Origin: Acidovorax sp. RAC01
GTDB lineage: Bacteria; Pseudomonadota; Gammaproteobacteria; Burkholderiales; Burkholderiaceae_C
Direction: 5' to 3'
DNA: 64,000 nt
Assembly: GCF_001714725.1 (NCBI RefSeq)
Contig: NZ_CP016447.1
Location: 2,991,001-3,055,000 of the forward strand
The notes beneath the pieces are model-generated. The model was not told the origin of the DNA. It did no database searches and was given only the letters and a program-made list of their open reading frames with translations. Positions 2,604 through 62,293 of this stretch are shown here, in pieces (within the stretch, counting starts at the first letter, position 1; each line of letters opens with the position of its first letter). Made by a program: the position numbers and the translations under genes.

Positions 2604-2670
2604 TTTGCTATTGAATTGATAGCTGCTGGCGCTTATGTTTTAAGCGCCAGGCGGCAATATCATTCAAAAA
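2604..2670 (+). repeat. Dispersed hairpin repeat, copy 1 (intergenic)
   Basis: Starts with TTTGCTATTGAATTGATAG and continues into GCTGC, with a perfect 9-bp stem TGGCGCTTA (2627-2635) / TAAGCGCCA (2641-2649). It shares the blocks GATAGCTGC, GCGCTT and an AAGCGC core with the other copies in this window, notably that at 46213-46276. It occupies almost the whole pnp-quinone oxidoreductase gap and could also weaken transcription between them. Confidence 0.7.
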
Positions 2671-2673
2671 CCC

Positions 2674-3672
2674 ATGAATGGCCATATGCACGCGGTAGAA
2701 ATCACTTCGTTTGGAGCGCCGGATGTTCTGCGTCTTGGCGAGCGGCCAGTGCCGCAGGCGGGCACGGGCGAGTTGCTCATCCGCGTGAGCGCAAGTGGCA
2801 TCAACCGCCCGGACGTGCTGCAGCGGCTGGGGCACTATGCCCCGCCGCCGGGCACGTCGGACTTGCCCGGACTGGAGGTCGCGGGCGTCATTGAGGCGGG
2901 CGATGCAGCTGCGATGGCGGAGGCGGGTTTCCGTATTGGCGACCGTGTCTGTGCACTGGTGGCAGGCGGCGGCTATGCGCAGTGGTGCGTAGCACCGGTT
3001 GTCCAGTGTCTGCCTGTGCCCGGAGGTCTGAGTGACGTGGAGGCAGCCTCGCTGCCGGAGACGTTTTTCACGGTGTGGAGCAACGTGTTCGACCGCGGAC
3101 GCCTGCAGCCCGGAGAAAGCCTGCTCATTCAGGGTGGCACCAGTGGCATCGGTGTGACGGCCATTCAGCTGGCGCGCGCTTTTGGTGCGACGGTGATCGT
3201 CACGGCAGGCAGCGACGCCAAATGCGCGGCATGCCTGTCGATGGGCGCTCACCACGCCATCAATTACAAGTTGCAAGACTTCGTGTCCGAAGTGCAGCGC
3301 ATTACCGCCGGCAAGGGGGTGGATGTGGTGCTCGATATGGTCGGTGGAGACTACGTGGCCCGTGAGGTCGAGTGTCTGGCCGAAGACGGACGGATCGTGA
3401 TCATCGCGGTACAGGGTGGCATCCAGAGCGGGTTCAATGCAAGCTTGGTGCTTCGTCGGCGCCTGACCATCACGGGTTCAACGCTGCGGCCGCGTCCGGT
3501 CGCGTTCAAGGGTGCCATCGCACGCGCCTTGCGCGAGCGTGTATGGCCCTTGCTTGCCTCCGGGATGATCAAGCCGGTGATTCACAGCACGTTCGAAGCA
3601 GCTGACGCGGCACAGGCACACGCCCTGATGGAATCCGGCCAACACACCGGCAAGATCGTTTTGACGTGGTAA
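2674..3672 (+). CDS. NAD(P)H quinone oxidoreductase (PIG3-type, MDR superfamily)
   Basis: 332 residues. It belongs to the zinc-independent medium-chain dehydrogenase/reductase family that reduces quinones with NADPH. The N-terminal GroES-like part contains [13 protein letters not shown] and [17 protein letters not shown]; the nucleotide-binding part contains [19 protein letters not shown] (about 150-168), the expected Rossmann motif, and a YxxxD-like segment after it. No zinc-ligand cysteines are seen. An alternative ATG at 2686 (MHAVEITS) fits the family start better; no clear ribosome site is visible for either. The stop is 17 bp from the likely tpiA start, so the two are probably cotranscribed. 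Confidence 0.88.
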
Positions 3673-3689
3673 CCCCCACGCAGTCCACC

Positions 3690-4439: not shown

Positions 4440-4481
4440 GGCGGCGACTGCACAAATTATTCAATCAGGAGTGAACAGAGA

Positions 4482-4850: not shown

Positions 4851-4864
4851 ACTTTACAAAAATG

Positions 4865-20136: not shown

Positions 20137-20682
20137 ATGAAGGTTCTCGATCTCCAGTGTAGCCAGGGCCATGTCTTTGAGGGCTGGTTTGCGTCTGAAG
20201 ACGATTTCCAGTCGCAAAAGCAGCGCGACCTGGTGCAATGTCCCCTCTGCAATGACCATCAGGTCCACAAACGCCTGAGTGCACCCCGGCTGAACCTGGG
20301 TGCGCGCCCGCCTGCGCCGACGCGATCTGGGCATGATGCGAATCAGCCTGGCCACGCTGATGCGGGCGGCGGCAGCGCTGCTGCTGGAATAGCACGCAAA
20401 GCTGCGACTACGGCTGTGACCCGATTCGACCAGGGCGGAGCCGCCGTACCGCCCGAAGCGGTCCAGGCCGCGTGGTTGCGCCTAGCGCGACACATTGCAA
20501 GCAATACCGAGGACGTGGGCGCTGCCTTTGCCCAGGAAGCCCGCCGAATCCACCATGGCGAAGCGCCCGAACGCGGGATTCGCGGCCAGGCCACGACCGA
20601 GGAAGCCCTGGAGCTTTTGGAAGAGGGCGTGGCCATCCTGCCACTCCCGTTGCCAGTCTCCGCCAAGGAAACCTTGCAGTAG
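20137..20682 (+). CDS. DUF1178 family protein
   Basis: 181 residues, soluble. The N-terminus MKVLDLQCSQGHVFEGWFAS with CPLCNDHQVHKRLSAPRLN looks like a small metal-binding ribbon (Cys-x3-His and CPLC). The middle (about 60-95) is low in complexity, and the C-terminal half is helical with RLARHIASNTEDVGAAFAQEARRIHHGEAPERGI-type text typical of DUF1178. Function unknown. It follows DUF2818 by 34 bp and is probably the last gene of the nuo transcript. Confidence 0.85.
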   Translation: MKVLDLQCSQGHVFEGWFASEDDFQSQKQRDLVQCPLCNDHQVHKRLSAPRLNLGARPPAPTRSGHDANQPGHADAGGGSAAAGIARKAATTAVTRFDQGGAAVPPEAVQAAWLRLARHIASNTEDVGAAFAQEARRIHHGEAPERGIRGQATTEEALELLEEGVAILPLPLPVSAKETLQ

Positions 20683-21200
20683 GGTCGCCGGGGAATCCCT
20701 GGCAGCGTCGGCTGAAGCATCGGCGCCTGCCGCTACAGGTTTGCTGCACGCGGTGGGCAATGTGCTGGCTCGACACTGGCGCAGTGCGCTTGCCCAGATG
20801 GCGGCCTCCCGGAGGTTGTAGCGGCGTGATTTCGCACGAGTTTTAGATCAAATCGGCCTCTGTCGCTTGATTTGATTGCACCTTTTGCTATTCATTAAAT
20901 AGCATTGAGAGCTTCTGATGGAGTGTCTGGCCATGGGCCGCCTTGCGATCCCGGTTGGCGTTCCTTGCATCCGGTGCATCGTCTTGTGCGCACATCCTCG
21001 CACGACTCAGTGGCCGTTGCGCGTCCATTAGGGGGCGTTTACGCACCTGCGAAAAGTGCAAGTCACTGCGCGCATGCCAAAGCCTTCGTCACTGTCACGC
21101 TCGTAACCGATCAAAGCCGACAGCGCGGCATTCCCATTGTCAGGGTCGCGTGAAGAAAGCAGGGCCGCCCATCTCTCCTGCCCTGTGCCGCCACCAGCCA
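20683..21200. other. 518-bp intergenic stretch
   Basis: Between DUF1178 and the convergent exporter gene. The first 140 bp read in one frame as a plausible alpha-helical peptide (VAGESLAASAEASAPAATG up to the stop at 20821) with no credible start, so it may be a gene remnant. A dispersed repeat copy follows at 20845-20915. I see no gene or clear terminator in the last 280 bp. Confidence 0.5.
20845..20915 (+). repeat. Dispersed hairpin repeat, copy 2 (intergenic)
   Basis: GGCCTCTGTCGCTTG core followed by a small inverted repeat TGCTATT (20886-20892) / AATAGCA (20898-20904). It aligns with the copies at 38258-38325 and 53835-53906, sharing the GGCCTCTGTCGCTTG block with the latter. It is clearly more AT-rich than its surroundings. 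Confidence 0.65.
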
Positions 21201-23120
21201 TCACACCGTGAACTGCAGCGCCGCGAGGCGCGCATAGACGCCTGCGCGCTCGATCAGTGCCGCGTGGGTTCCCTCCTCCACGATCTGGCCATGCTCCAGC
21301 ACGACGATACGGTCCGCGTTCTGGACGGTGGCCAGCCGGTGGGCAATTACCAGTGTGGTCCGCCGCCCGGTGTGGCGCTGCATGGCGGTGTCGAGGGCGG
21401 CCTGCACCATGCGCTCGCTTTCGGCATCCAGAGCGCTCGTGGCTTCATCCAGCAGCAGCAGGGGCGGGTCCTTGAGCATGGCGCGGGCGATCGAGATGCG
21501 CTGGCGCTGGCCGCCTGAAAGGCGCACGCCGCGCTCGCCCAGAAAGGTCTCGTAGCCTTCAGGCAGCGCAGTGATGAAGTCGTGTGCAAACGCCGCCTGT
21601 GCGGCAGCGATCACCTCGGCCCTGGTGGCATCGGGCCGGCCGTAGCGGATATTTTCGAGCGCCGTGGCCGAGAAAATCACAGCGTCTTGTGGCACGGTGC
21701 CGATGGCTGCGCGCAGGGCGGACAGGCGCAGCGCGCGAAGGTCCACACCGTTCAGGCGAATGGCACCGCCGGCGCCGGGCCGTGGAGCCATCAGGTCACT
21801 GCTGTCAGGCCCCTGTGCGACATCGCTGGGCACCGTGCCTCCATGCGCAGCCGCACTGGCCCGGGCCTGTTGTCCGGGTGCGTCACCCACGTCATAGAAC
21901 CGCTGCAGCAATTGGAACACCGTGGTCTTGCCTGCCCCGCTGGCACCCACCAGCGCCACCGTCTCGCCCGACCGCAGCGTCAACGAAAAGCCGCGCAGGG
22001 CCGGGTGGGCAGGGCGGGAGGGGTAGTGAAAGCTCACCCCGTCAAACTCCACCGCCAGCCCCTGGCCCGAGAGCGGCAGTTCCTGGGGCTTGGGTGGATC
22101 GGCCACTGGCGAGCGGCTGGCCAATAGCTCCATCAGGCGCTCTGTGGCACCGGCTGCGCGCAGCAGGTCGCCATACACCTCGCCCAGTACGGCCACAGCA
22201 CCCGCCAGCAGGATCACGTACACCACCGTCTGCCCAAGGTGGCCTGCGGTCATGTCCCCGGCCAGCACCGCCTGTGTGCCGCGGTACAGTCCCCACAGCA
22301 GCAATGCCGCATTGGCAATGATGATGAACGCCACCAGCAAAGCGCGGGCGCTGGTGCGGCGCACGGCCACCTGGAACGCGTTCTCGGTGGCCCGGCCGAA
22401 CCGCGCTGCCTCACGCGGCTCGGCGGTGTAGCTTTGCACCACCGGCACGGCGTTGAGCACCTCGGCCGCAATGGCGCTGGAGTCGGCCACGCGGTCCTGG
22501 CTGTCGCGCGAAAGGCGGCGCACGCGCCGCCCGATCCACATCGTGGGCAAGACCACCAGCACCACCGCCAGCAGCACATGCGCCATGACGTACGGGTTGC
22601 TCCACACCAGCATGGCCAGCGCACCCACGCCCATGACGGCATTGCGAAGGCCCATTGACAGCGACGAGCCCACCACCGTCTGCACCAGCGTTGTGTCGGT
22701 GGTCAGTCGCGACAGCACCTCTCCGGTCTGCGTGGTTTCAAAAAACTCGGGGCTTTGCTGCAGCACGTGGCCGTATACCGCATTGCGCAGGTCGGCCGTC
22801 ACGCGCTCGCCCAGCCAGCTGACCATGTAGAAACGGGCGGCAGAGAACACGCCCAGGGCCACTGCAACAGCAAAAAGCGCTTCAAAATGTTCGCGCAGCG
22901 CCATGGTCTGGGCACCCCGGTCGCCTGCCAGCAGACCCCCGTCAATCAGGCCGCGCAGCGCCATCGGGAAGGCCAGCGTTGCCAGCGCTGCAAGCACCAG
23001 AAAGACACCCGCGAGTGCAATGCGCCCGCGATATGGACGCAGAAAGGGCAGCAGCCCCGAAAGCGAGCGCGGGGCCCCGCGCGCTGCGGAAGTGGAAGGC
23101 CGTGTGAGCATGGTTTGCAT
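21201..23120 (-). CDS. ABC exporter, fused membrane and ATP-binding domains (MsbA/multidrug type)
   Basis: 639 residues. The N-terminal ABC transmembrane domain has six helices (about 28-330). The ATP-binding domain has Walker A GASGAGKTT, signature LSGGQRQRISIARA, Walker B LLLLDEATSALD and the switch His IAHRLAT. An extra hydrophilic Ala/Gly/Pro-rich stretch of about 40 residues (about 410-450) lies between Walker A and the Q-loop, which is unusual for the family. It would act as a homodimer moving lipids, peptides or drugs outward; substrate unknown. It diverges from the uptake operon that starts at 23318. Confidence 0.93.
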   Translation of the reverse strand: MQTMLTRPSTSAARGAPRSLSGLLPFLRPYRGRIALAGVFLVLAALATLAFPMALRGLIDGGLLAGDRGAQTMALREHFEALFAVAVALGVFSAARFYMVSWLGERVTADLRNAVYGHVLQQSPEFFETTQTGEVLSRLTTDTTLVQTVVGSSLSMGLRNAVMGVGALAMLVWSNPYVMAHVLLAVVLVVLPTMWIGRRVRRLSRDSQDRVADSSAIAAEVLNAVPVVQSYTAEPREAARFGRATENAFQVAVRRTSARALLVAFIIIANAALLLWGLYRGTQAVLAGDMTAGHLGQTVVYVILLAGAVAVLGEVYGDLLRAAGATERLMELLASRSPVADPPKPQELPLSGQGLAVEFDGVSFHYPSRPAHPALRGFSLTLRSGETVALVGASGAGKTTVFQLLQRFYDVGDAPGQQARASAAAHGGTVPSDVAQGPDSSDLMAPRPGAGGAIRLNGVDLRALRLSALRAAIGTVPQDAVIFSATALENIRYGRPDATRAEVIAAAQAAFAHDFITALPEGYETFLGERGVRLSGGQRQRISIARAMLKDPPLLLLDEATSALDAESERMVQAALDTAMQRHTGRRTTLVIAHRLATVQNADRIVVLEHGQIVEEGTHAALIERAGVYARLAALQFTV

Positions 23121-33776: not shown

Positions 33777-36533
33777 CTACCAATCCTCCTTCACCGCCAT
33801 CACTGCATCCCGCCCCGCCGCCGCCCGTCCCGCCAGCCACGCTGTCACGGTGCCCGACACGATGACCGCCAGGCACAGCGCAAACAGCCGCGGCCCGGGC
33901 AGGCTCAGGTCCATGGTCCAGTGAAAGCTCTGCGGGTTGACCACATGCACCAGCACCACCGACACCACAATCCCCAGCGCCAGCCCCGCGGCTGCGCCCA
34001 CGCTCGTCCAGGCAGCGCCTTCGCCCGCGACCACGGCCAGGATCTGGCGGCGGGTGAGGCCCAGGTGGGCGAGCAGGCCAAACTCCTTGCGGCGGGCCAG
34101 GACCTGGGCGCTGAAGCTGGCGGCCACGCCGAACAGGCCGATGCCGATGGCCACGGCCTGCAGCCAGTAGGTGACGGCAAAGCTGCGGTCAAAGATGTGG
34201 AGCGAGCGTTCGCGGATGGTGGAGGAGGACACGAATTCCACCAGGGCTCCGGCCGTTTGCGCGTCACCCGTGGCTTGGTCGCCTGGCTGCACGCTGGCGG
34301 GGGCTGTGCCTGCTGTTCCCGACACCCCCGGCGTGCCCGATATGCCATTCGCGCCCGTGCCTCCTTGCCCGGCAGGCGCGCCAGCCACTTGCGCAGCCAG
34401 CGCGCGAATCGATTGCTGCAGCGCCACCAGGTCCGCCCCTTCGCTGGGCCACAGCGCCAGGTCGCTGGTGCGGGCGTCGCCCGTGAGGGCCAGCCAGACG
34501 GCGCGGTCCATGGCGACAGCGCCTGACTGGCGGGCGTAGTCGCGCCAGACGCCTGCTATGAAAAACGTAGCTACAGATGCCCTGGAATCATGCCCTGGGG
34601 CTCTGAAAGCCTTGGAAAGTGCGGGCCATTCCATGCCAGGCGCCAATCCGTACAGGTCGACCACCGCCTCGCTGATGTACACGGCGGTGCGCCCGGCGGG
34701 CACGGCCAGTGGCTCGCCCACCAGCGGAAGGTGCTGACCGGGGTTGGTGCCCAGGGGGCGGCTCAGCACCATCAGCGCGGGGCGGGTGGGCTCCAGCTGC
34801 AGGGGGCTGGCGCGCAGGGGCTGTACGCGGTCGAGCCCCGGCAGCCGGGCCACGGCTTCTGCAAAGCCTGCGGGCAGCAGCGCGGCTTCGCTGCCGGCCT
34901 CGCTCTGCGCAGAGCGCACGTACAGGGGCGACGGCAGCACGGCATCCAGCCACTGCGTGACCGAGCCGCGAAAGCTCGACACCATCACCGTCAGCGCCAC
35001 GGCCAGGCTCAGGCTGGCCACCACGCCGCCCACGGCAATGGCGGCGCTGCCGCGCATGCGCCGGGCGCGCTCCAGCGCCAGCAACGGCAACACGCGCCGC
35101 GCGGCCAGCGGCTGCAGGATGTGCAGGGCGCGCGCCATGGCCCAGGGCAGCAGGGCAATGCCGCCCACCAGCAGCAGCGCAATGGCCACGTACGCCGCCA
35201 GCGGTATGCCCCACACCGGAGGCACGGCGGTGAGCAGCCCGCCGGTGGCCAGCAGGCCAGCGCCCAGCCAGGGTGTTTCGGCGGCACCAGCGGCGGCACC
35301 CAGGCCCTTGAGCGTCTGCGCGGGCGGCAGGCGCTGCGCGGCCCGCGCGGGCCACCAGCCGCCTGCCAGCGCGGCGGCCACGCCCAGCGCGCCGTAGATC
35401 AGGGCGGCAGGCGCGCTCCACTGCAGCGCGGGCTGCACGCCCGAGAAGTAGCCGCCGCCCAGGTCGCCGCCCAGCAGCCGCAAGGCCGTGGCAGCCAGCG
35501 CCGTACCCAGTGCAATGCCTGCCGCGCTGCCGGCCAGCCCCAGCGCGGCGGATTCGGCCAGCACCAGCGCCAGCCGTTGCCGGGGCGTGGTGCCCAGCAC
35601 CGCCAGCAACGCAAACTGCGGCGCCCGCTGCGCCACGCTGAGCGCCAGCACCGAGAACACCAGAAACGCCCCGGTGAACAGCGCCACCAGCGCCAGCACC
35701 GTGAGGTTGACGCGGTACGCGCGCGAGAGGTTGCTGATGCGCTGGGCTGCATCGCCCGGCTGGGCAAAGCTGGCGTTGGCAGGCCACCCGGCCTGGGCCT
35801 GCATGTCGCGCTGCCAGGCCGCGCGGTCGGTGCCCGGGCGCAGTTGCACATCGATGCGGCTGAGCTGCCCGGCGCGGCCAAACAGGTCCTGCGCGGCGCC
35901 AATGTCCATCACGGCCAGGGGTGCGCCACCAGCGGCGACGGTGCCGCCGACTTCCACCGTAAGGCTTTGCAACCCGGCCAGCAGCGTGATGCGCAGCGGC
36001 GCATCGCTGCCATGTTCGGTGGGCAGGCCCAGCGCCTGCAGCGCAGCGGCGTTGAGGAACACCGTGGCGGGCGCAAACAGCACCATGCGGTCGGCCCCGG
36101 GCCACGGGCGTGGCGCCAGCGCGGGGGGCATGGCGGGCACCAGCAGGGCATCGGCACCCAGCACGCGCAGGGGCGTGCGGGCCGGGGCCGCGGCCAGGTT
36201 GCCGGCGACGGGCGTGGAGGCGCCGGCAGACCTCGCCGATTGCGCCAGCGCCGACAGCTCCAGCAGGGGGCTGGCGCGGGCCACGGCCGGGTGGGTGGCC
36301 ACGCGCTCGTACAAGGCTTCAGGCAGGCTGCCTTGCATGGCGCGCAGCTCCAGGTCGGGCTGGCCGTTGACCGCCCGCACCGCCTGCGAAAACTCATCCA
36401 GCGCCGACGCATTGATCACATGCACGGCGAACGCCAGCGCCACACCGAGCATGACGGCAGCCACGGCGGCTGCGCTGCGCCAGGGGTGGTGGCGCAGGTC
36501 CTGCCAAGAGAAGGTGCGGAGCAAAGCAAGCAT
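33777..36533 (-). CDS. FtsX-like ABC transporter permease
   Basis: 918 residues from ATG at 36533 (MLALLRTFSWQDLRHHPWRS). Two FtsX domains with periplasmic parts: the first membrane helix is at about 18-38, further helices at about 255-420 and 440-545, and the last three at about 785-905. The tail RKEFGLLAHLGLTRRQILAV is typical of MacB/LolC-type permeases. A Gly/Ala/Thr-rich linker (about 717-757) lies in the second periplasmic part. Residues about 642-660 (GHDSRASVATFFIAG region) are encoded by a dispersed repeat. Likely works with the ATPase at 37198-37869 and the AttH-like protein in lipid or lipoprotein transport; this is inference. Confidence 0.88.
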   Translation of the reverse strand: MLALLRTFSWQDLRHHPWRSAAAVAAVMLGVALAFAVHVINASALDEFSQAVRAVNGQPDLELRAMQGSLPEALYERVATHPAVARASPLLELSALAQSARSAGASTPVAGNLAAAPARTPLRVLGADALLVPAMPPALAPRPWPGADRMVLFAPATVFLNAAALQALGLPTEHGSDAPLRITLLAGLQSLTVEVGGTVAAGGAPLAVMDIGAAQDLFGRAGQLSRIDVQLRPGTDRAAWQRDMQAQAGWPANASFAQPGDAAQRISNLSRAYRVNLTVLALVALFTGAFLVFSVLALSVAQRAPQFALLAVLGTTPRQRLALVLAESAALGLAGSAAGIALGTALAATALRLLGGDLGGGYFSGVQPALQWSAPAALIYGALGVAAALAGGWWPARAAQRLPPAQTLKGLGAAAGAAETPWLGAGLLATGGLLTAVPPVWGIPLAAYVAIALLLVGGIALLPWAMARALHILQPLAARRVLPLLALERARRMRGSAAIAVGGVVASLSLAVALTVMVSSFRGSVTQWLDAVLPSPLYVRSAQSEAGSEAALLPAGFAEAVARLPGLDRVQPLRASPLQLEPTRPALMVLSRPLGTNPGQHLPLVGEPLAVPAGRTAVYISEAVVDLYGLAPGMEWPALSKAFRAPGHDSRASVATFFIAGVWRDYARQSGAVAMDRAVWLALTGDARTSDLALWPSEGADLVALQQSIRALAAQVAGAPAGQGGTGANGISGTPGVSGTAGTAPASVQPGDQATGDAQTAGALVEFVSSSTIRERSLHIFDRSFAVTYWLQAVAIGIGLFGVAASFSAQVLARRKEFGLLAHLGLTRRQILAVVAGEGAAWTSVGAAAGLALGIVVSVVLVHVVNPQSFHWTMDLSLPGPRLFALCLAVIVSGTVTAWLAGRAAAGRDAVMAVKEDW
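34553..34610 (-). repeat. Dispersed hairpin repeat, copy 3 (in frame inside the FtsX permease gene)
   Basis: On the plus strand it begins CTGCTATGAAAAACGTAGCT and contains the direct repeat ATGCCCTGG twice. In the coding direction it reads ASVATFFIAG with a rare ATA codon; the copy at 62184-62250 gives ALAATFSIAE in the same frame. Confidence 0.6.
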
Positions 36534-37869: not shown

Positions 37870-38876
37870 GCGGTGGCCTTCTTCATCTGCGCCAGCCGCT
37901 GCAGCACGGCCTGCACCAGAGCGGCCACGGCGTGGGGCTGGTCGCAGGCAATGGCCTGGCGCTGCTGCATGCTGCGCAGCCAGGTGATCTGCCGCTTGGC
38001 CAGCTGGCGCGTGGCGGCAATGCCGCGCTCGCGCAGGTGGGCCAGGTTGGGCGGGGCGTCGGGCGCGCGCGCGGCCTGGAAGTCCAGTTCATCCCACACC
38101 TGGCGGTAGCCCACGCAGCGCATGGAGGGCAGGTCGGGGTGCAGGTCGCCGCGCGCGCGCAGGGCGCGCACTTCGTCCACCAGGCCGGCGGCCAGCATGG
38201 CATCAAAGCGCTGGGCGATGCGCTCGTGCAGCCAGGCCCGGTCGTCGGGTTCCAGGGAAAAAAGTGCCGTATCGCTTGCCCTGTCTGCCTTGTTTGCTAC
38301 GGATTTGGTAGTGTGAAAGCTCGACAGCGGTTGGCCCGATACATGCCACACCTCCAGCGCGCGCTGTATGCGCTGGCTGTCAGCGGGTGCCAGGCGGGCG
38401 GCAGTGGCGGGGTCTACCCGGGCCAGCTCGGCGTGCAGGGCGGGCCAGCCATGTTCGCGGGCCTGCGACTCCAGCCGCGCGCGCACTTCGGGGTCGGCCG
38501 CGGGCATGTCATCAATGCCGTCAAACAGCGCCTTGAAGTACAGCATGGTGCCGCCTACCAGCAGCGGCAGCGCCCCGCGCGCTCGGATCTCGCCCATCAG
38601 GCGGGTGGCGTCCTGCACAAACTCGGCGGCGCTGTAGGCCTGCAGCGGGTCGCGGATATCGATGAGGTGGTGGGGCACGGCGGCCAGCTCGGCGGCCGTG
38701 GGCTTGGCGGTGCCGATGTCCATGCCGCGGTAGACCAGGGCCGAATCGACGCTGATGATCTCGACCGGCTGGCCCTGGCGCGCCAGCACGGCGGCCAGCG
38801 CCAGTGCGCCTGCGGTCTTGCCCGACGCGGTGGGGCCGGCGAGGGCGATGGCGGGCAGGGCTTCAGGCGCGCTCAC
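37866..38876 (-). CDS. miaA: tRNA dimethylallyltransferase
   Basis: 336 residues; adds dimethylallyl to A37 of tRNAs that read codons starting with U. Motifs: P-loop [44 protein letters not shown] and [17 protein letters not shown], with CVGYRQVWD near the end. Start is GTG at 38876 ([14 protein letters not shown]) with GGAGAG upstream; the open frame to 39005 is inside the MFS gene. It overlaps the MFS stop by 14 bp and the ATPase start by 4 bp. Residues about 184-206, after the LSSFHTT segment, are encoded by a dispersed repeat. Confidence 0.96.
38258..38325 (-). repeat. Dispersed hairpin repeat, copy 4 (in frame inside miaA)
   Basis: The plus strand shares ATCGCTTGCC and TTTGCTA with copy 8 (53835-53906) and the same spacing of blocks. 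In miaA it encodes [16 protein letters not shown], an insertion-like segment between conserved blocks. Confidence 0.6.
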
Positions 38877-45371: not shown

Positions 45372-47429
45372 TCACCGTCCACGCAAAAACAACCCGTCCA
45401 GTTCCTTCATCGTGAGCTGCCGCCACGTCGGCCGCCCGTGGTTGCACTGGTCGCTGCGGTCGGTGGTTTCCATCTGCCGCAGCAGAGCGTTCATTTCGTC
45501 GATGGTGAGCCTGCGGTTGGCGCGCACGGCGCCGTGGCAGGCCATGGTGCCCAGGATCTCGTTACGGGCACGTTGCACCACGGTGGTGGCGTCGTGCGCG
45601 GCCAGTTCGGCCAGCACGCTGCGGGCCAGCTCCACCGGGTCGCCTTGCGCCAGCGTGGTGGGCACCGCGCGCACGGCCAGGGTTTTGGGCGAGAAGGGCA
45701 CCACTTCCAGCCCCAGCGTGGCCAGCACGTCGGCAGACTCTTCCGCGGTGGCCACTTCCTGCGGCGTGGCGGCGAAGGTGGCCGGGATCAGCAGGGGCTG
45801 GCTGGCAATGCGCGCTCCACTGTCCACCTGCGCCTTCAGGCGCTCGTACACGATGCGTTCGTGTGCGGCGTGCATGTCGACGATGACCATGCCCTGGGCG
45901 TTCTCGGCCAGGATGTAGACGCCGTGCAACTGGGCCACGGCTTTGCCCAGCGGCCAGGTGCCCAGGTCCTGCGCCTGGGGCCACGCGGCTTCGTCGCCTG
46001 CCCTGGCGGGTGCGCCGGACCCGGTTGCGGCGCCTTGGGATGTGGATGCAGGGGCTGCTGACGAGGGCAGCGCAGCGGATGCCGGTGCGCCTTCGGCGAA
46101 TGCTTCGCCGCCCCAGTGGGCCAACGGGGCGACCGGCGCTGCGGGCAGTGCGTCGGCGGTGTCGTTGCGCGGCCCCCACAGCGCCTGCAGATCTGCTACG
46201 TGGTGGCCACGTTCATCAAATTTGATAGCTGCCTGCGCTTGCCAGTTCTGCGCTGGCGGCCTGTTTGGCTTGAAATGGTCACTGTCAGCCGCCGTGTCGG
46301 GCACCGTGCCGGCAGCGGCGGCGGCTGAGGTGGCGGCCAGCGCAGCGGCGCGGGGCGCGGCCAGCGCGTTTTCGACCGCGTGGCGCACGGCCTGGTGCAC
46401 CTCGCGGCTGTCCCGAAAGCGCACTTCGATCTTGGTCGGGTGTACGTTCACATCCACGCGGGCCGGGTCGATCTCGACATACAGCGCGTAGATGGGCTGT
46501 TTGTGGCCGTGCAGCACGTCTTCGTAGGCGCTGCGGGCGGCGTGGGTCAGCACCTTGTCGCGCACGAAGCGGCCGTTGACGTAGCAGTACTGGTGGTCGG
46601 GCCGCGAGCGGGCGGCATCAGGCAGGCCCGCGCGCCCGGTGACGGTGACGGGGCCCACGCGGTGCTGCACGGCGACCGACTGCGTGACGAAGTCTTCACC
46701 CAGCACGTCGGCCAGGCGGCGGGCCAGCGCGTCTTGCCCGTCCTGGGCTTGCTGGGGCTGGCCGGGCGTGAAGGTTGTGCGCCACTGCTCCACCAGCTTG
46801 CCTTCGTGCCAGATGGCAAAGCCCACGTCAGGCCGCGCCAGCGCATGGCGCCGTACGGATTCCACGCAGTGCGCCAGCTCGGTGGCGTCGGTCTTCAAAA
46901 ATTTGCGGCGCGCGGGGGTGGAAAAGAACAGCTCCTTCACCTCCACCGTGGTGCCGGTGCTGCGCGCCGCGGGGCGCAGTTCGCCGCTGCGGGCGTCCAG
47001 CAAAAAGGCGCTGCCCTGGGCGGCAGGGCGCGAGAGCAGGGTCATCTCGGACACCGAGGCAATGGCGGCCAGCGCCTCGCCGCGAAAGCCCATGGTGGCC
47101 ACGGTTTCCAGGTCGGTCAGGCTGGTGATCTTGCTGGTGGCGTGGCGGCGCAGTGCCACGGGCAGCTCGTCTTGGGGAATGCCACCGCCATCGTCTTCCA
47201 CGGTGATCAGTCGCACGCCGCCCGCCAGCAGCCGCACCGTGATCTGCGTGGCCCCGGCATCCAGCGCGTTGTCCACCAGCTCGCGCACCACCGAGGCGGG
47301 GCGCTCCACCACTTCGCCTGCGGCGATCTGGCTGATCAGCTCGTCGGGCAGGTCGCGGATGGGGCGGCGGGTGGGGGCGGAAGCGGGCTGCTGCAAGGTG
47401 ACAGCAATGGGCGGGGTGGGGTCGTTCAC
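45372..47429 (-). CDS. mutL: DNA mismatch repair protein MutL
   Basis: 685 residues. The N-terminal GHKL ATPase has IAAGEVVERPASVVRELVDN, ALDAGATQITV, DDGGGIPQDEL and MGFRGEALASI-type text (MGFRGEALAAIASVSE). The C-terminal domain has DMHAAHERIVYERL, CHGAVRANRRL and CNHGRPTW, the motifs of metal-dependent MutL endonucleases found in bacteria without MutH. The linker is long and Ala/Pro-rich (about 360-475); residues about 385-406 are encoded by a dispersed repeat. It coordinates repair after MutS. Its start is 103 bp from the divergent dedA gene. Confidence 0.97.
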   Translation of the reverse strand: MNDPTPPIAVTLQQPASAPTRRPIRDLPDELISQIAAGEVVERPASVVRELVDNALDAGATQITVRLLAGGVRLITVEDDGGGIPQDELPVALRRHATSKITSLTDLETVATMGFRGEALAAIASVSEMTLLSRPAAQGSAFLLDARSGELRPAARSTGTTVEVKELFFSTPARRKFLKTDATELAHCVESVRRHALARPDVGFAIWHEGKLVEQWRTTFTPGQPQQAQDGQDALARRLADVLGEDFVTQSVAVQHRVGPVTVTGRAGLPDAARSRPDHQYCYVNGRFVRDKVLTHAARSAYEDVLHGHKQPIYALYVEIDPARVDVNVHPTKIEVRFRDSREVHQAVRHAVENALAAPRAAALAATSAAAAAGTVPDTAADSDHFKPNRPPAQNWQAQAAIKFDERGHHVADLQALWGPRNDTADALPAAPVAPLAHWGGEAFAEGAPASAALPSSAAPASTSQGAATGSGAPARAGDEAAWPQAQDLGTWPLGKAVAQLHGVYILAENAQGMVIVDMHAAHERIVYERLKAQVDSGARIASQPLLIPATFAATPQEVATAEESADVLATLGLEVVPFSPKTLAVRAVPTTLAQGDPVELARSVLAELAAHDATTVVQRARNEILGTMACHGAVRANRRLTIDEMNALLRQMETTDRSDQCNHGRPTWRQLTMKELDGLFLRGR
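46213..46276 (-). repeat. Dispersed hairpin repeat, copy 5 (in frame inside the mutL linker)
   Basis: The plus strand reads AAATTTGATAGCTGCC, then GCGCTT, GCGCTGGCGGCC and TTTGGCTTGAAA. The last block is also present in copy 6 (48228-48296), and GATAGCTGC is shared with copy 1. It encodes QNWQAQAAIKFDERG in the mutL frame, in the variable linker where insertion is tolerated. Confidence 0.65.
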
Positions 47430-47532: not shown

Positions 47533-48186
47533 ATGGAAATTGTCACCTTCCTGATCGACTTCATCCTGCATGTGGACCGGTATCTGGAGAACTTCGTCAC
47601 CGCCTACGGCGCCTGGGTGTATGCGCTGCTGTTCCTGATCGTGTTTGTGGAAACGGGCGTGGTGGTGATGCCGTTTCTGCCCGGTGATTCGCTGCTGTTC
47701 ATCGTGGGCGCACTGTGTGGGGCTGGGATGATGAGCTTTCCCATTGCATGCACGGTGCTGATCGTGGCGGCCATCCTGGGCGACCAGACCAACTACACCA
47801 TCGGCCGGTACTTCGGGCCCAAGGTGTTCCAGTGGGAAGACTCGCGCTGGTTCAACCGCCGCGCCTTCAACCAGGCGCACGACTTTTACGAACGTTACGG
47901 CGGCATCACCATCGTGATTGCACGCTTCATGCCTTTCATTCGCACGTTTGCGCCGTTTGTGGCGGGCGTGGCCGAGATGAACCGCAGCAAGTTCACGGCA
48001 TACAACGTGGGTGGCGCGTTGCTGTGGGTGCTGGGCATCTGCAGCGCCGGGTACTTCTTCGGCAACTTTGCCTGGGTGCAGGAGCACCTGGACAAGATCA
48101 TCTGGGCCATGATCATCGTGCCGGGCCTGATTGCCATCTTCGGCGCGTGGCGCGCCGGGCGGCAGGCCAAGACGGCATCGTCCTGA
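47533..48186 (+). CDS. DedA family membrane protein
   Basis: 217 residues with several membrane helices. DedA marks: FVETGVVVMPFLPGDSLLF near residue 40, the FERYGG-like YERYGGITIVIARFMPFIRT, and FAPFVAGVAEMNRSKF. DedA proteins act in lipid scrambling and proton-dependent envelope homeostasis. Start at ATG 47533 (MEIVTFLIDF); no strong ribosome site is visible. Diverges from mutL. Confidence 0.93.
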   Translation: MEIVTFLIDFILHVDRYLENFVTAYGAWVYALLFLIVFVETGVVVMPFLPGDSLLFIVGALCGAGMMSFPIACTVLIVAAILGDQTNYTIGRYFGPKVFQWEDSRWFNRRAFNQAHDFYERYGGITIVIARFMPFIRTFAPFVAGVAEMNRSKFTAYNVGGALLWVLGICSAGYFFGNFAWVQEHLDKIIWAMIIVPGLIAIFGAWRAGRQAKTASS

Positions 48187-48227: not shown

Positions 48228-48296
48228 CTTGCTATCAAAAAAGAAGCTCCCAGTGCTTGTGGAACAAGCGCTGGAAGCTTCTTTGGCTTGAAACGG
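48228..48296 (+). repeat. Dispersed hairpin repeat, copy 6 (intergenic)
   Basis: TTGCTATCAAAAAAGAAGC is followed by an imperfect hairpin, CCAGTGCTTGT-GGA-ACAAGCGCTGG, then TTTGGCTTGAAA, shared with copy 5. It lies between the dedA stop and the glycine-zipper gene end, which converge, so it might also end transcription. Confidence 0.68.
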
Positions 48297-52112: not shown

Positions 52113-52631
52113 TCAGAGCCCCATGAGCAGGCTGCGCCCTGCGGCGGTGCCGGCCTGCAGCGTGACGCGTCTTTGGTTGTCATCAATTGCTTCAATGTGT
52201 ATAGCAATATCTGCAGGCGGGGTAAGTGCTGCGGCCTTTTCTGGCCATTCTGCCACCTTGAGGCCGGGGCTGGCAAAGATGTCCCGAAAGCCAGCGTCTT
52301 CCCACTCGCGCGGGTCGTCAAAGCGGTAGAAGTCGAAGTGCCACACGGTGGTGGCCTCGGGTGCCAGGCCCGGGGCTTCGTGCGGCTCGACCACGGCGTA
52401 GGTCGGGCTTTTGACGCGGCCTTGCACGCCCAGCGCGCGCAGCAGGTGGCGCACCAGGGTGGTCTTGCCCGCGCCCAGGTCGCCATGCAGCGTGATGAAC
52501 GCGTGGGCCAGCCCGGGCTGCGCGGCCAGCCGCTGTGCAAAGGCGGCAGTGTCGTCCTCGGTGTGCCACGAGAGGGTGCGCGCTGGCGCTGCGGCATCGG
52601 GTACGGGGGGCGTTTCTACAATCGGAGGCAT
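52113..52631 (-). CDS. tsaE: tRNA threonylcarbamoyladenosine biosynthesis ATPase TsaE
   Basis: 172 residues; ATPase that supports TsaBD in making t6A37 of ANN-reading tRNAs. Walker A HGDLGAGKTTLVRHLL, SPTYAVVEPHEA and VWHFDFYRFDDP are diagnostic. The N-terminus starts at ATG 52631, which abuts the queG ATG on the other strand (CATATG). A repeat-like stretch covers residues about 131-155. No Shine-Dalgarno is visible, so the start is likely but not proven. Confidence 0.93.
   Translation of the reverse strand: MPPIVETPPVPDAAAPARTLSWHTEDDTAAFAQRLAAQPGLAHAFITLHGDLGAGKTTLVRHLLRALGVQGRVKSPTYAVVEPHEAPGLAPEATTVWHFDFYRFDDPREWEDAGFRDIFASPGLKVAEWPEKAAALTPPADIAIHIEAIDDNQRRVTLQAGTAAGRSLLMGL
52168..52240 (-). 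repeat. Possible dispersed hairpin repeat, copy 7 (inside tsaE)
   Basis: The plus strand has ATAGCAATATCTGCAGGCG and ends GTGCTGCGGCC, close to GCGCTGCGGCC of copy 9. It encodes PPADIAIHIEAIDDN with ATA codons. The match is weaker than for the other copies; it may instead be ordinary tsaE sequence. Confidence 0.4.
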
Positions 52632-53750
52632 ATGTGGTGCAGCAGTCAACTCGTTCCTCAAATGCAGGAGTGGGCCCGCGAGCTGGGATTTTCCCAAATC
52701 GGCGTGGCAGGGGTCGATTTGTCTGCCGCAGAGCCGGGCCTTGCGGCATGGCTTGCGCAGGGTTTTCATGGTGACATGCATTACATGGCATCACATGGCC
52801 TCAAGCGCGCGCGGCCCGCAGAGCTGGTGCCCGGCACCGTGAGCGTGATCACCGCCCGCATGGACTACCTGCCGCGGCACACGCCCGAACGCGCCCCCGA
52901 TGGCTGGCAGGCCCTGGAGCTGGGGCGCCTGGCCCGGCCTGCCGAGGGCATTGTTTCCATCTATGCCCGGGGCCGCGATTATCACAAGGTGCTGCGCGCC
53001 CGCCTGCAAAAGCTGAGCGACCGCATCGCCGCCGAGGTGGGCCCGTTTGGCCACCGCGTGTTCACCGACTCGGCCCCCGTGCTGGAGGCCGAGCTGGCCT
53101 CGCGCAGCGGCCAGGGCTGGCGCGGGCGGCACACGCTGGTGCTCAACCGCGAGGCGGGTTCGATGTTTTTCCTGGGCGAGATTTATGTGGACATGGCGCT
53201 GCCCGAGAGCGCCCCCGTCACGCCCCACTGCGGCAGCTGTACCGCCTGCATCGACATCTGCCCCACGCAGGCCATCATTGCGCCGCACCGGCTGGATGCG
53301 CGGCGCTGCATCTCGTACCTCACCATCGAACATGCCGGCCCCATCCCGCAGGAGCTGCGGCCGCTGATGGGCAACCGCATCTACGGTTGCGACGATTGCC
53401 AGCTGATCTGCCCGTGGAACAAGTTTGCGCAGGTCAGCCGCCTGCCCGACTTTGACGAGCGCAACGGGCTGGCGGGGCAGCAGCTGGTGCATCTTTTTGC
53501 GTGGGACGAGGCCACGTTTTTGCGCATGACGGAGGGCGGCCCCATTCGCCGCATCGGCCACGAGCGCTGGCTGCGCAACGTGGCGGTGGCGCTGGGCAAT
53601 GCACTGCGTGCAGCCACCCAAGGTAGCGCGGAAGGTATGGGCGATGTGCAGGCCTTACGCGCCGCGTTGCACTCGCGCGCTGGTGACGAAAGCGCGCTGG
53701 TGCGTGACCATGTGGCGTGGGCGCTGGCGCAGGGTGTGCAGGGCGCGTAA
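52632..53750 (+). CDS. queG: Epoxyqueuosine reductase
   Basis: 372 residues; reduces epoxyqueuosine to queuosine in tRNA with cobalamin and two [4Fe-4S] clusters. Cluster motifs HCGSCTACIDICPTQAI and YGCDDCQLICPWN with RRCISYLTIEH between them are intact. Start ATG at 52632 directly abuts the divergent tsaE ATG; GGAGG is only 3 nt upstream. The open frame extends to 51960, but that is the amiC/tsaE complement. Confidence 0.96.
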   Translation: MWCSSQLVPQMQEWARELGFSQIGVAGVDLSAAEPGLAAWLAQGFHGDMHYMASHGLKRARPAELVPGTVSVITARMDYLPRHTPERAPDGWQALELGRLARPAEGIVSIYARGRDYHKVLRARLQKLSDRIAAEVGPFGHRVFTDSAPVLEAELASRSGQGWRGRHTLVLNREAGSMFFLGEIYVDMALPESAPVTPHCGSCTACIDICPTQAIIAPHRLDARRCISYLTIEHAGPIPQELRPLMGNRIYGCDDCQLICPWNKFAQVSRLPDFDERNGLAGQQLVHLFAWDEATFLRMTEGGPIRRIGHERWLRNVAVALGNALRAATQGSAEGMGDVQALRAALHSRAGDESALVRDHVAWALAQGVQGA

Positions 53751-53834
53751 GGGCCCCTCGGACGCCCATCGCCGTGGTGCGGGGTGCGCGCACTGCCTGT
53801 CGGGCGGATTCACCCCCTCGTTGATGGAAATTTT

Positions 53835-53906
53835 TCGATCAGAAAGGCCTCTGTCGCTTGCCTATAAACGATTTATTGCTATTAAAATAATAGCAAATTG
53901 CTTCAA
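53835..53906 (+). repeat. Dispersed hairpin repeat, copy 8 (3' end of GDSL gene region)
   Basis: GGCCTCTGTCGCTTGCC followed by a perfect 9-bp stem TTGCTATTA (53876-53884) / TAATAGCAA (53888-53896). It starts 84 bp after the queG stop and touches the GDSL-gene stop (minus strand). Its AT-content contrasts sharply with the flanks. Confidence 0.68.
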
Positions 53907-58767: not shown

Positions 58768-60048
58768 TTATTCGCCGTCCAGGCTTTCGGCCCAGGTGAG
58801 CGCCTGCAGGTGGGCCCAGTTGACCTGGCGGTTCGACAGATGCAGCGCGTTGGCCGCGTTGGCAAACGCTACCTCATCGCCGCTTTCGCAGGCTTTCGTC
58901 AGCTCCAGGAAGGGCGCAAACACGCCGGTGCCACGCAGCAGTGCGTCCATCACCGGCTCGGGCAGGGCGACGGATTCCAGCGCTTTCTCCAGCGGCACGC
59001 CCAGCATGGTGTCCAGCAGTGAGAACACGCCGACCACGAACGCGTTGTCGCACTCTTCGGGTTCCAGCAGCTCTGCCGCGAGCAGCTCCATGAGGCGGCC
59101 CCGAACCACAGCGGTCTGTCCTACGGCTGGTGGCGCGCCACCCGCGCGCGATGTCGTCATGAGCAGGGCCGCCCAGCGGAACAGTTTTTTCAGCCCGAGG
59201 ATCATCACCGCGTGGCGGAACGACGTGATCTCGCACGACAGCCCGAACCCCGACGAATTGATGAAACGCAACAGGTTGAACGAGAGCGTGGGGTCCTTCT
59301 TGAGCAAGTCCTCGATCTCGGCGGTGCTGGCCTGCTTTCGCACCAGGTTGATCAGCTGGATGATGGTCGCCTGCGAAGGCCGGATGGTGGTGGCCTTGAC
59401 GAGGGCCGGCTTGGCAAACCAGTAGCCCTGGAAGAGCTTGACGCCCAGGTCGCGCATCAGCTCGTACTGCTCGGCGGTCTCGACTTTCTCGGCCACCAGC
59501 GTGGCCTGGCTGTATGTGGTGGCGAACTTGACCAGGGGCGCCGCCATCTCGGGCCTGAAGGCCTGCATGTCCAGCTTGATGAAGGCGCCCAGCGGCAGCC
59601 AGCTGGTGTAGGCGCGGCGAAGTGCCTGCTGATCGAAAGCCAGGCGAAAACCCCGCGTGCGCAGGGCCTGCAGTGTGGGGACGCGGCCCTCGATCTCCTC
59701 GGGGGTGGCCCCGTCTGGCAGCGGGGGCACTTCCAGCACCACTTTTTCAGGGTGAATCAGTTCCAGGTGTCCGCCAGAGAGACTGTCGTGCGTGCAGTTG
59801 ATGAACACGGTCTTCTTGCCGACCAGCGCTTCCGTGCCTGCGTACGACAGGGCGTTGAACAGCAGCGCGGCATCGCTGGCGGCCGTGTGGGAGTCGGATG
59901 CCGTGGAGCGGTCGAACAGCTCGTAGCCGTAGACAGCGCGTGACTCGTCAACGATGGCCTGGCGCGCAATGATGGCCAGGTTCTCGTCGACCGCAACAAG
60001 GTCTTGCGGGGCGGTTTCCGGGACATCGTGTTCGGGAGTACTCGGCAT
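58768..60048 (-). CDS. EAL-HDOD signalling protein, copy A
   Basis: 426 residues. The N-terminal half (about 20-215) is a degenerate EAL fold: YGYELFDRS stands at the EAL position, IKLDMQAF, AEKVET and FQGYWFAKP are retained, but the DDFG metal motif reads AFDQQALR, so c-di-GMP hydrolysis is doubtful. The C-terminal half is an HDOD domain (IEDLLKKDPTLSFNLLRFIN, GLKKLFRWAALL). Such proteins act in signalling, motility or biofilm control. Downstream paralogue of the gene at 60141-61409; 92 bp separates the two. Confidence 0.88.
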   Translation of the reverse strand: MPSTPEHDVPETAPQDLVAVDENLAIIARQAIVDESRAVYGYELFDRSTASDSHTAASDAALLFNALSYAGTEALVGKKTVFINCTHDSLSGGHLELIHPEKVVLEVPPLPDGATPEEIEGRVPTLQALRTRGFRLAFDQQALRRAYTSWLPLGAFIKLDMQAFRPEMAAPLVKFATTYSQATLVAEKVETAEQYELMRDLGVKLFQGYWFAKPALVKATTIRPSQATIIQLINLVRKQASTAEIEDLLKKDPTLSFNLLRFINSSGFGLSCEITSFRHAVMILGLKKLFRWAALLMTTSRAGGAPPAVGQTAVVRGRLMELLAAELLEPEECDNAFVVGVFSLLDTMLGVPLEKALESVALPEPVMDALLRGTGVFAPFLELTKACESGDEVAFANAANALHLSNRQVNWAHLQALTWAESLDGE

Positions 60049-60140
60049 GGAGGGTTCGCTTTGGAAAGATCAGAATTCGCTCTGATTCTAGACCCACCTG
60101 TTACGCCAGCGAACCCTTTGATACGACCGCAGCCCCGCGT

Positions 60141-61409
60141 TCAGTCTGTCAGCTGGTCAGCCCAGGCCAGGGCCTGCAGGTGCGCGAAGTTGATTTGCTG
60201 GCTGCTCAGGTGCAGCAGCCCGGCAGTCCGGTCAAAAGCCGCGTCGTCGCTCGATTCACATGCTTCTGCAAGGGTCAGGAGGTCGCCGAGGAACCCTTCC
60301 CGGCGCAGCAGCGCTGCGGCGACGGGCTCGGGCACGTTCAGCAGCCCCACGGCGGCATCCATGGGCATCGACAGCATCACGTCGAGCAGCGAAAAGATGC
60401 CCACCACGAATGCCTGGTCTGCTTCCTCGGGTGGCAGCGTCTCCAGCGCAAGCAGTTCCATCAGACGGCCTCGCACCACCGCAGTCTGTCCCAGCGACGA
60501 GGGCGCCCCGCCGCTTCGCGACGCCGTGAGCAGCAAGGCCGCCCAGCGGAAGAGCTTCTTGAGGCCCATCAGCATCACCGCCTGGCGGAAGGACGTGATC
60601 TCGCGGTTGAGACCAAACCCTGCCGAGTTGATAAGCCGCATGAGGTTGAACGCCAGCCCTGCATCCTTCTTGAGGACCTCCTCGATCTCGTCGGTGCTGG
60701 ACTGGTTACGTACCTGGTTGATCAGCTCGATGATGCTTGCCTGCGCTGGCGCCAGCAGCTTGGTCTCCACCAGAGAGGGCCGGGCAAACCAGTAGCCCTG
60801 GAACAGCTGCACCCCCTGGCTGGACACCATGTCGTACTGTTGCGCGGTTTCCACCTTCTCGGCGATCAGCTCGGCCTCGCAGTGTCGCCCGGCGTAACTG
60901 ATCAATACCGCCAGTTGGTCGGGCGCCAGCACCGAAAGGTCGAGCTTGATGTAGTCGGCCAAAGGCAGCCAGGGCGCGTAGGCCGACTGCAGCACGGTGT
61001 GGTTGAACGCCAGATGAAAGCCCCGTTCCCGCAGGCCGCTCAGGATGGGTGTGCGCATGGCCACCTCTTCGCTGGCAGCGTGGCCCAGCGCCGGGATCTC
61101 CAGCACCACTTTGTCAGGGTCCAGCAGTTCGAGGTGCCCCCCCGAGAGGCTCTCGTGCGTGCAGTTCACGAAGATGAGCTTCTTGCCCACCAATTCTTCG
61201 CTGCCAGCATGGGAAAGCGCGTTGAACACCAGGATGACATCGGTGGCGGCGGTGTGCGTGGCTGCAGTGCGCGAGCGGTTGAACAGTTCGTATCCCACGA
61301 CCATGTGCTGCGCATTGACGATGGCCTGGCGGGCGATCATGGCCACGGGCGAAGAGCCGCAGGAGGGCGGCGTTGCATTGGGAGTCTCATGCGGATGGGG
61401 CGAAGTCAT
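60141..61409 (-). CDS. EAL-HDOD signalling protein, copy B
   Basis: 422 residues; same architecture as copy A. YGYELFNRS-type text (VGYELFNRSRT), IKLDLSVLAPD, AEKVETAQQYD and FQGYWFARP are retained, and the DDFG position is AFNHTVLQ, so catalysis is again unlikely. HDOD: IEEVLKKDAGLAFNLMRLIN and GLKKLFRWAALLLTASRSGG. It is the first gene of the tandem pair on the minus strand. Possible cooperation with copy A is inference. Confidence 0.88.
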   Translation of the reverse strand: MTSPHPHETPNATPPSCGSSPVAMIARQAIVNAQHMVVGYELFNRSRTAATHTAATDVILVFNALSHAGSEELVGKKLIFVNCTHESLSGGHLELLDPDKVVLEIPALGHAASEEVAMRTPILSGLRERGFHLAFNHTVLQSAYAPWLPLADYIKLDLSVLAPDQLAVLISYAGRHCEAELIAEKVETAQQYDMVSSQGVQLFQGYWFARPSLVETKLLAPAQASIIELINQVRNQSSTDEIEEVLKKDAGLAFNLMRLINSAGFGLNREITSFRQAVMLMGLKKLFRWAALLLTASRSGGAPSSLGQTAVVRGRLMELLALETLPPEEADQAFVVGIFSLLDVMLSMPMDAAVGLLNVPEPVAAALLRREGFLGDLLTLAEACESSDDAAFDRTAGLLHLSSQQINFAHLQALAWADQLTD

Positions 61410-61489
61410 GGTTTAGGGTGTGCGTGGACCGTTGATGGGAATGCGCCGCATGCAGGCCGGATTCATCGTCGCTGGGTCATCGTCAGGGG

Positions 61490-62293
61490 TCAGACCTGCT
61501 GGAGCCAGCGAAGTTCTGTGTCGGTGAAACCAGCGCTGCGGCGAGCGGCTTCGTTGAACGGCGGCTTCAGTCGCGGGGCCTCGTACTGATGCACCAGGGT
61601 TCCATAGTGTGCCTCGGGGTCAATACCCTCGCGTTCGCACAGCCATCGGTACCAGTGGTTGCCAATGGCGACATGGCCGACCTCATCGTGCAGGATGGTG
61701 TCGAGGATGGCGGCGGCCGCCACCGCGTCCGGTGCACCGGCATTGCGCAGCTTGGCCTGGATCTGCGGCGTGGCGTCAAGCCCGCGGGCTTCGAGCGTGC
61801 GGGGCACCAGCGCCATGCGGGCCACGATGTCATGGCGGGTCTTCTCGCACATGGTCCACAGCCCCTGGTGGGCCGGAAAGTCGCCGTAGTCATGCCCCTG
61901 CGCGCGCAGGTGGTTGCGCAAAAGCTGAAAATGCGTGGCTTCCTCGGCAGCCACCCGCGTCCAGTCAAGGTAGTAGGCGCGCGGCATGCCGTCAAACCGC
62001 CACACGGCGTCAAGCGCCAGATTGATGGCATTGAACTCGATGTGTGCAATGGCGTGGATCAGGATGGCTCGGCCCGCGGGAGTGGCGGGCGAGCGGCGGG
62101 CCACGGCAGTGTGGGTCAGCAGCTCCGGACGGTCCGGGCGCCCCGGGAGTTCGGCGGGATCGCTCGGGCCTTCGGGGGCTGACTCTGCTATTGAAAAAGT
62201 AGCTGCCAGGGCATGCATTTCAAGCGCTGCGGCCACTTTTTGTTCGGGGTCTGCCAGGCGCAGGGTCTGCAGGGCACGGTGGCGAAGCTCCAT
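61490..62293 (-). CDS. DUF455 ferritin-like protein
   Basis: 267 residues. Ferritin-like di-iron marks: IHAIAHIEFNAINLALDAV, RVAAEEATHFQLLRNHL and TILHDEVGHVAIGNHWY (Glu and His ligand pairs). DUF455 proteins have unknown function; a redox or hydroxylase role is possible. N-terminal residues about 15-37 (ATFSIA) are encoded by a dispersed repeat. Start ATG at 62293. Diverges from the gamma-carbonic anhydrase. Confidence 0.86.
   Translation of the reverse strand: MELRHRALQTLRLADPEQKVAAALEMHALAATFSIAESAPEGPSDPAELPGRPDRPELLTHTAVARRSPATPAGRAILIHAIAHIEFNAINLALDAVWRFDGMPRAYYLDWTRVAAEEATHFQLLRNHLRAQGHDYGDFPAHQGLWTMCEKTRHDIVARMALVPRTLEARGLDATPQIQAKLRNAGAPDAVAAAAILDTILHDEVGHVAIGNHWYRWLCEREGIDPEAHYGTLVHQYEAPRLKPPFNEAARRSAGFTDTELRWLQQV
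62184..62250 (-). repeat. Dispersed hairpin repeat, copy 9 (in frame inside the DUF455 gene)
   Basis: The plus strand reads CTGCTATTGAAAAAGTAGCT, GCCAGGGCATGC, then AAGCGCTGCGGCC. In the coding direction it gives ALAATFSIAE with a rare ATA codon, in the same frame as copy 3 (ASVATFFIAG). Confidence 0.62.

Follow-up and report, generated by a model that had tools for sequence, protein, structure and literature searches.

Several families of dispersed repeats described in bacteria resemble, each in part, a motif of about 65 bp that recurs along a 64,000-nucleotide stretch of the genome of Acidovorax sp. RAC01 (NCBI RefSeq assembly GCF_001714725.1, contig NZ_CP016447.1, positions 2,991,001 to 3,055,000 of the forward strand; hereafter the window). 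The uptake signal sequences (USS) of the Pasteurellaceae have genic copies that arise by substitution, as judged by a published gap test (PMC1626085), and the Rickettsia palindromic elements are segments of ~150 bp that have been added into proteins (PMC10969869). Repetitive extragenic palindromic (REP) sequences, with their REP-associated tyrosine transposases (RAYTs), are palindromes of 20-40 bp with a GTAG or CGTC tag (PMC3733652, PMC2817692). Closer to Acidovorax, the BRE repeats are 69% GC, 75-91 bp long and often tandem (PMC3110155), and VeiPR1 is a palindromic repeat said to be unique to Verminephrobacter eiseniae (PMC3975124, citing Pinel 2009).

The Acidovorax motif shares with USS its hundreds of copies, gap-free genic copies, preferred reading frames and presence at gene ends (PMC1626085, PMC2346458), but USS are short and strict whereas the motif is 65 bp long and degenerate (mean pairwise identity 0.53 among 97 sampled copies), and its phage copies are net additions. 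It is like the REP/RAYT system in its high copy number, partly palindromic sequence, mostly extragenic location and position at gene 3' ends, and most genomes searched have a RAYT gene; however, it is longer than a REP, no tag is seen at its consensus ends, RAYT presence is mismatched with motif presence, and 28 of the 97 copies are genic. The full definition of neither USS nor REP describes it. As with Rickettsia palindromic elements the repeat occurs within protein-coding genes with the frame kept, but it adds no peptide in the genes tested. Like BRE, which is also found in Bordetella, it is dispersed in the Comamonadaceae with some copies in genes, although its length, its GC content (32-52% in the window) and its dispersed arrangement set it apart from BRE by description. 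VeiPR1 is likewise palindromic and has a very large number of copies in the Comamonadaceae genome that carries it; it too is compared by description, it is said to be restricted to V. eiseniae, and a search of the V. eiseniae plasmid pVEIS01 for the motif gave nothing convincing (best expectation value, E, 0.068). These two nearest reports differ from the motif in the features that the descriptions allow to be compared, and VeiPR1 may nonetheless be the same element. The consensus has no terminal inverted repeats, unlike miniature inverted-repeat transposable elements, and the literature searched, mostly open access, yielded no description of the 65-bp motif.

The reading that we favor, at about an even chance, is that this is a recognition motif in DNA that is being maintained, under selection or drive and with a putative reader, and that it resembles REP sequences in its location.

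Extent, placement and anatomy of the family

The original prediction held that sequence blocks shared by nine sites of the window define a dispersed, partly palindromic family with some members in genes where the frame is kept, and proposed a profile search. A model built from the nine sites alone matches all nine but is circular, and models R1 and R2, which were trained with window copies included, are not independent either. The window copies were tested with a hidden Markov model (HMM) built from 27 copies, none of them from the window, and applied to the window together with twenty 20-kb stretches spaced over the same genome (G000; 4.57 Mb, one contig), 464 kb in all. It recovers eight of the nine copies at E 5e-4 or better, and the same 464 kb, when reversed or dinucleotide-shuffled, yields no match better than E 1.1. 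In the whole genome the best 150 candidates were scored, and all 150 match, with E values from 3e-11 to 5e-5. The shared blocks are thus a family far above chance, and of the copies predicted (at least eight, probably nine) eight stand, the ninth, in tsaE, reaching only E 0.033. The copies are indeed AT-rich relative to the window (64.7% GC), and none was found within nuo, as had been claimed.

At E < 0.005 the first twenty stretches contain 54 copies and a second twenty contain 35 (49 and 30 at the stricter E < 1e-4), and these 89 copies in 800 kb extrapolate to ~510 per genome. The number of copies per 20-kb stretch is near Poisson (mean 2.23, variance 1.97), and no replication-strand bias is seen among the 150 best matches. 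The segment from 3.75 to 4.57 Mb contains 12 of these 150, with ~27 expected from its length (0.82 Mb), and the GC skew flips sign nearby.

Within the genus, ten of twelve genomes contain from 54 to at least 150 matches and the other two contain 2 and 4. Across the bacterial family, matches at E 1e-6 are present in 42 of 150 genomes, representing 38 of 141 genera, with the best 33 candidates scored in each genome, whereas eight genomes of the same order but of different families yield no match at E 1e-4. Loci of the mutL region carry copies in Acidovorax, Simplicispira, Giesbergeria, Paenacidovorax, one Diaphorobacter and one Comamonas; those without a copy at E 1e-4 are from Paracidovorax (five), Delftia (three), Curvibacter (three), Extensimonas (two) and Limnohabitans (one), although one Paracidovorax locus (L071) nonetheless has one exact match to the core pattern. 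Three plasmid records also have a match. The motif-poor genome G002 yields six matches at E < 0.005 in 1.20 Mb, against the 89 in 0.80 Mb of G000, and because it is so poor in them codon usage in the genus does not explain the genic matches in G000; weak genic matches (E > 1e-4) may include some chance matches.

Individual copies persist at orthologous sites. At site 53832, 17 of the 23 loci that hold both flanking genes carry a copy in the gap in the same orientation, the copy filling the convergent gap while the intergenic bases flanking it do not align between loci; Acidovorax soli, in which the two genes have an overlap of 49 nt, lacks the copy. The gap at site 48229 contains a copy in 14 of 27 loci, again in the same orientation, and the copies in miaA and in the linker of mutL have counterparts at the orthologous position in several genera. 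A flank-based screen for empty sites (81 sequences) often gave unreliable extrapolated junctions, and gene-to-gene distances and alignments were used instead; relative to G002, intergenic gaps with a copy are 160 and 52 nt longer, in a comparison of two pairs that is too small to weigh.

Genes in the sampled stretches were called by a hexamer script, and their starts and N-terminal positions are uncertain. Among the 97 sampled copies 69 lie outside genes, mostly at gene 3' ends, with 26 in convergent gaps (104 gaps), 39 in tandem gaps (537), 3 in divergent gaps (104) and one at the end of a stretch. This corresponds to densities of 1.49, 0.59 and 0.12 copies per kb in convergent, tandem and divergent gaps respectively, and about one gene end in ten carries a copy. 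In the chromosomal tandem gaps 17 copies are oriented with transcription and 22 against it, without strand preference.

The information content drops sharply at both edges of the 65-bp unit, in intergenic and genic copies alike. A single orientation fits every copy, with the consensus TTGCTATTAAATTAATAGC-7-GC-9-AAGCGCTAGaGGCC-TTTg-ct-AAA. The AGC of ATAGC and the GC of AAGC are 100% fixed in the 69 intergenic copies, other positions being near 40%, and intergenic copies are 66% identical to the consensus. Because no pair among the 97 copies exceeds 82% identity, nothing points to a recent duplication. Three imperfect palindromes have their centers ~23 and ~20 bp apart, and the consensus ends, TTGCTAT and TGaaAA-like, are not complementary to each other.

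Such palindromes could act in RNA, as hairpins that end or stabilize transcripts or control intercistronic expression. The high density in convergent gaps, where a copy can fill the whole spacer, would fit such a role, as would the alignment with transcription of most tandem phage copies, several directly behind a stop codon (see below), and the folding of intergenic copies, which is better than that of matched controls (mean z -1.50 versus -0.44; genic copies -0.61). We nevertheless find an RNA element improbable. Two thirds of the intergenic copies have z above -2, RNAalifold returns no consensus structure, and none of the three helices has base-pair covariation beyond that of shuffles, whether in 36 copies or in the 69 intergenic and 28 genic ones (24 viral copies had been chosen by core pattern, and their core is uninformative in this respect). 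The chromosomal tandem copies lack any preferred strand, and between window positions 46000 and 64000 terminator-like sites are no more frequent than in shuffles (10 versus 11.2); within that interval only the copy at 48229 gives such a site, so that the copies do not in general have the GC-rich hairpin and following U run of an intrinsic terminator.

Copies within protein-coding genes

A genic copy by definition lies in a called gene, and its kept frame is partly a matter of construction. The sense copies nonetheless favor one frame (9 of 11), as do the antisense copies (12 of 17), and the preferred frames are those with the fewest stops, as read off the consensus. GC content at third codon positions (GC3) is 0.40 across the 28 genic copies and 0.84 in their flanks. 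At five sites (L129:10544, L130:9012, L130:18788, L131:18813 and L138:10058) the copy, in sense and in one frame, makes the signal-peptide-like start of a called protein, of the form IKxIAxxAxxASAxxxF.

The genic copies had been likened to Rickettsia palindromic elements, that is, to DNA inserted in frame, and this likeness fails because orthologues with and without the motif are equal or nearly equal in length. The miaA loop has the same length in 31 of 47 relatives and differs by -3 to +2 residues in the other 16, with or without a motif match, and is 4 residues shorter in the E. coli-type structure 2zm5. For DUF455, 20 of 25 aligned homologues (25 of the 120 listed, from other genera) are equal in length, the remaining 5 lacking 1-2 residues. 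The AnmK segment is 48 residues long in 20 of 27 loci, including the motif-poor G002, G005 and G038, and 45-51 in the others; the corresponding segment of an HI0933-like gene is 62 residues in 20 of 27, with outgroups at 54-60 and one at 70. PurL is 7 residues longer at its copy than the Salmonella-type structure 1t3t. None of the miaA, DUF455, AnmK and HI0933-like orthologues gains the ~22 residues of an inserted unit, and five of the six genic copies testable against G002 are gap-free. With no net length gain in motif-bearing orthologues, Rickettsia-type insertion is rejected for the genes tested; the orthologues from other genera, which have the same length at the same position, go part of the way to refuting the original suggestion and leave the family itself intact.

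To judge from these alignments, the genic copies look like pre-existing sequence changed in place and not like inserted DNA. In the gene of a Glycos_trans_3N protein (L120:7315), 20 of 23 residues are identical in G002, in whose counterpart no motif was found, and GC3 is 0.26 in G000 versus 0.70 in G002; the difference may be a gain in G000 or a loss in G002. In this the genic copies resemble DNA uptake sequences, which arise by substitution, and the motif as a whole might be an uptake signal like that of the Pasteurellaceae, spread by biased uptake and recombination. The gap-free genic copies, obtained with the same test as for USS (PMC1626085), would agree with this, as would the preferred frames in both senses and the hundreds of copies, kept at orthologous sites and lost in a few close relatives. 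A consensus to which copies are only 66% identical is nevertheless degenerate beside the strict cores of USS, its 65 bp are far longer, and the tandem phage copies are aligned with transcription, and we regard an uptake signal as highly improbable.

Phage copies and the proposed maintenance of the motif

Viral contigs contain 27 stretches with an exact match to the core pattern, and all 27 score as copies at E 1e-3; GenBank phages have no match at E 0.01. At E 1e-5 there are 29 viral copies, 19 of them in tandem gaps, 8 in called genes, one in a convergent gap and one with a gene on one side only. Sixteen of the 19 tandem copies are oriented with transcription, and several viral copies start directly 3' of a stop codon. 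Five contigs (L290, L293, L297, L302 and L310) have a moderate match (E ~1e-6) within a gene, which in L290 encodes the terminase large subunit.

In six contigs from different phages (L312, L316, L315, L308/L313 and L300, two of the six sharing identical sequence) a copy lies between genes for a RecT-/Bet-like annealing protein and a RecE-like exonuclease, and among 50 related RecE loci that were scored, 5 are immediately preceded by a copy. The stop-to-start distance is ~69 nt in L317 and L312 versus 10-13 nt in L319, L320 and L323, which can be aligned with them up to the stop codon; the flanks have diverged and there is no clear target duplication. Nowhere else is added DNA clear, and this one case speaks for the motif being able to spread also as a copied unit.

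A non-autonomous mobile family of REP-like type and ancient origin could have left this pattern, having been spread by a transposase (perhaps a RAYT or a lost enzyme) and now mostly persisting and decaying, with the lengths of genic copies restored by deletions. In its favor are the net addition in phages, the related phages being empty at that place and two of them (L319 and L320) carrying copies elsewhere, the REP-like placement at gene 3' ends, and the absence of the copy from A. soli where two genes overlap. Motif-like sequence also lies just 3' of the RAYT gene in several genomes, although about one gene end in ten carries a copy anyway. This explanation is in our view a rather unlikely one. 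With no pair above 0.82 identity there has been no recent burst, the consensus ends have neither terminal inverted repeats nor a GTAG-like tag, and genic copies have no added length. RAYT-type Y1 transposases are found in 13 of 13 same-genus genomes, motif-poor ones included, and of 19 motif-rich genomes of the family 18 have RAYT-type PF01797 matches, as do 15 of 19 motif-free ones; the motif-rich G160 has no RAYT and the motif-poor G002 has one. A RAYT is not favored as the mobilizer, as its presence does not follow that of the motif. In the motif-rich G035 there are twenty matches to PF01797, among them IS200-type copies, 153 residues long, that are nearly identical.

If the motif is instead a maintained recognition motif, as we favor, then its ~65 bp, with near-invariant GC-containing cores, AT-rich spacers and three imperfect palindromes, would be a recognition site at the level of DNA, most likely bound by a putative host factor and possibly of some benefit to the cell. 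Its hundreds of copies would be kept by selection or drive on the DNA sequence itself, in either orientation, and would settle where proteins and promoters leave room: in convergent gaps, just past stop codons and, within proteins, in variable loops, in linkers and in signal peptides. In the intercistronic gaps of phages, copies would also be gained as added DNA.

Several observations weigh against a maintained recognition motif, the strongest being the net addition of 56-59 nt between recT/bet and recE relative to related phages. The two near-motif-free genomes of the genus are complete, and because they do almost without the motif the family is dispensable. With ~40-50 bits of sequence at each of about five hundred sites there is much to build by substitution. 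In the comparison with G002 one of the six genic copies has an 11-residue gap, and three of the six genes carry weak matches (E 1e-4 to 5e-3). The GC3 of AnmK is similar in motif-rich (0.62) and motif-poor (0.70) genomes, and that of its segment is 0.50 in G000 versus 0.45 in G002. Finally, profile searches favor cores and AT-rich sequence, and both the invariance of the cores and the low GC3 are partly built in.

A bolder proposal is that the Comamonadaceae keep a 65-bp multi-palindrome signal at ~500 sites, for uptake or chromosome organization, which reshapes codons and amino acids in place and is carried by phages too; we advance it tentatively and on the doubtful side. To our knowledge, genome-wide signals of this kind are so far known only as 9-12 bp sequences. 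If a motif of this length is indeed kept at hundreds of sites and built within genes by substitution, selection or drive on DNA would be remodeling the loops, linkers and signal peptides of proteins throughout a bacterial family. Motif-rich and motif-poor species within one genus would then provide a ready comparison for finding the reader, and the genic copies are a warning that a repeat within genes need not be an insertion.

Copies in the window and neighboring genes

The first copy of the window (2605..2669, + strand; 37.0 bits with the HMM, RNA folding z -6.0) lies between pnp (339-2579, +) and a zinc-type dehydrogenase gene (2674-3672, +), both identified by Pfam. The best-scoring copy, at 49.3 bits (20841..20905, -), is between the convergent DUF1178 (20137-20682, +) and ABC transporter (21201-23120, -) genes. 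Two further convergent gaps are occupied, one between a VTT-domain gene (47533-48186, +) and a glycine-zipper open reading frame (48366 onward, -) by a copy at 48229..48293 (+; 45.5 bits, z -5.9), and the other between a queG-like gene (to 53750, +) and a GDSL lipase gene (53903 onward, -) by a copy at 53832..53896 (-; 37.0 bits). Rfam finds only a tRNA in the window.

Four or five in-frame genic copies had been predicted, and four are borne out. Two of them score moderately: 34553..34617 (+; 21.6 bits over model positions 4-50), antisense and in frame within an FtsX-type permease gene (33777-36533, -), and 38250..38314 (-; 18.3 bits), sense and in frame within miaA (37866-38876, -). The miaA copy is strong in A. 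radicis and A. facilis (L032 and L035, 39.3 bits with R1, for which the window miaA copy was among the training sequences). The DUF455 gene (61490-62293, -) has an antisense copy near its start (62185..62249, +; 34.6 bits). The fifth, claimed in tsaE (52113-52781, -) at 52187..52246 (+), is unsupported at 12.6 bits and was rejected, as it scores weakly, sits where the Pfam TsaE match ends, and has its residues and spacing shared by motif-free relatives; by comparison with these relatives the stretch is ordinary TsaE coding sequence.

The antisense copy in mutL (45372-47429, -) at 46211..46275 (+; 34.9 bits over model positions 11-68) falls in the linker between two conserved regions, as placed by the linker alignment and Pfam, in a MutL whose closest relatives are from Acidovorax. 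Within this linker (window 46215-46277, L031-L110) the residues W..Q.AI.F are kept in nearly all aligned Comamonadaceae, even those without the repeat, and presumably resemble a sliding-clamp binding motif. Elsewhere in the window, two adjacent minus-strand genes (58768-60048 and 60141-61340) form a tandem duplication, with repeats of 282-300 nt in common that are 71-72% identical.

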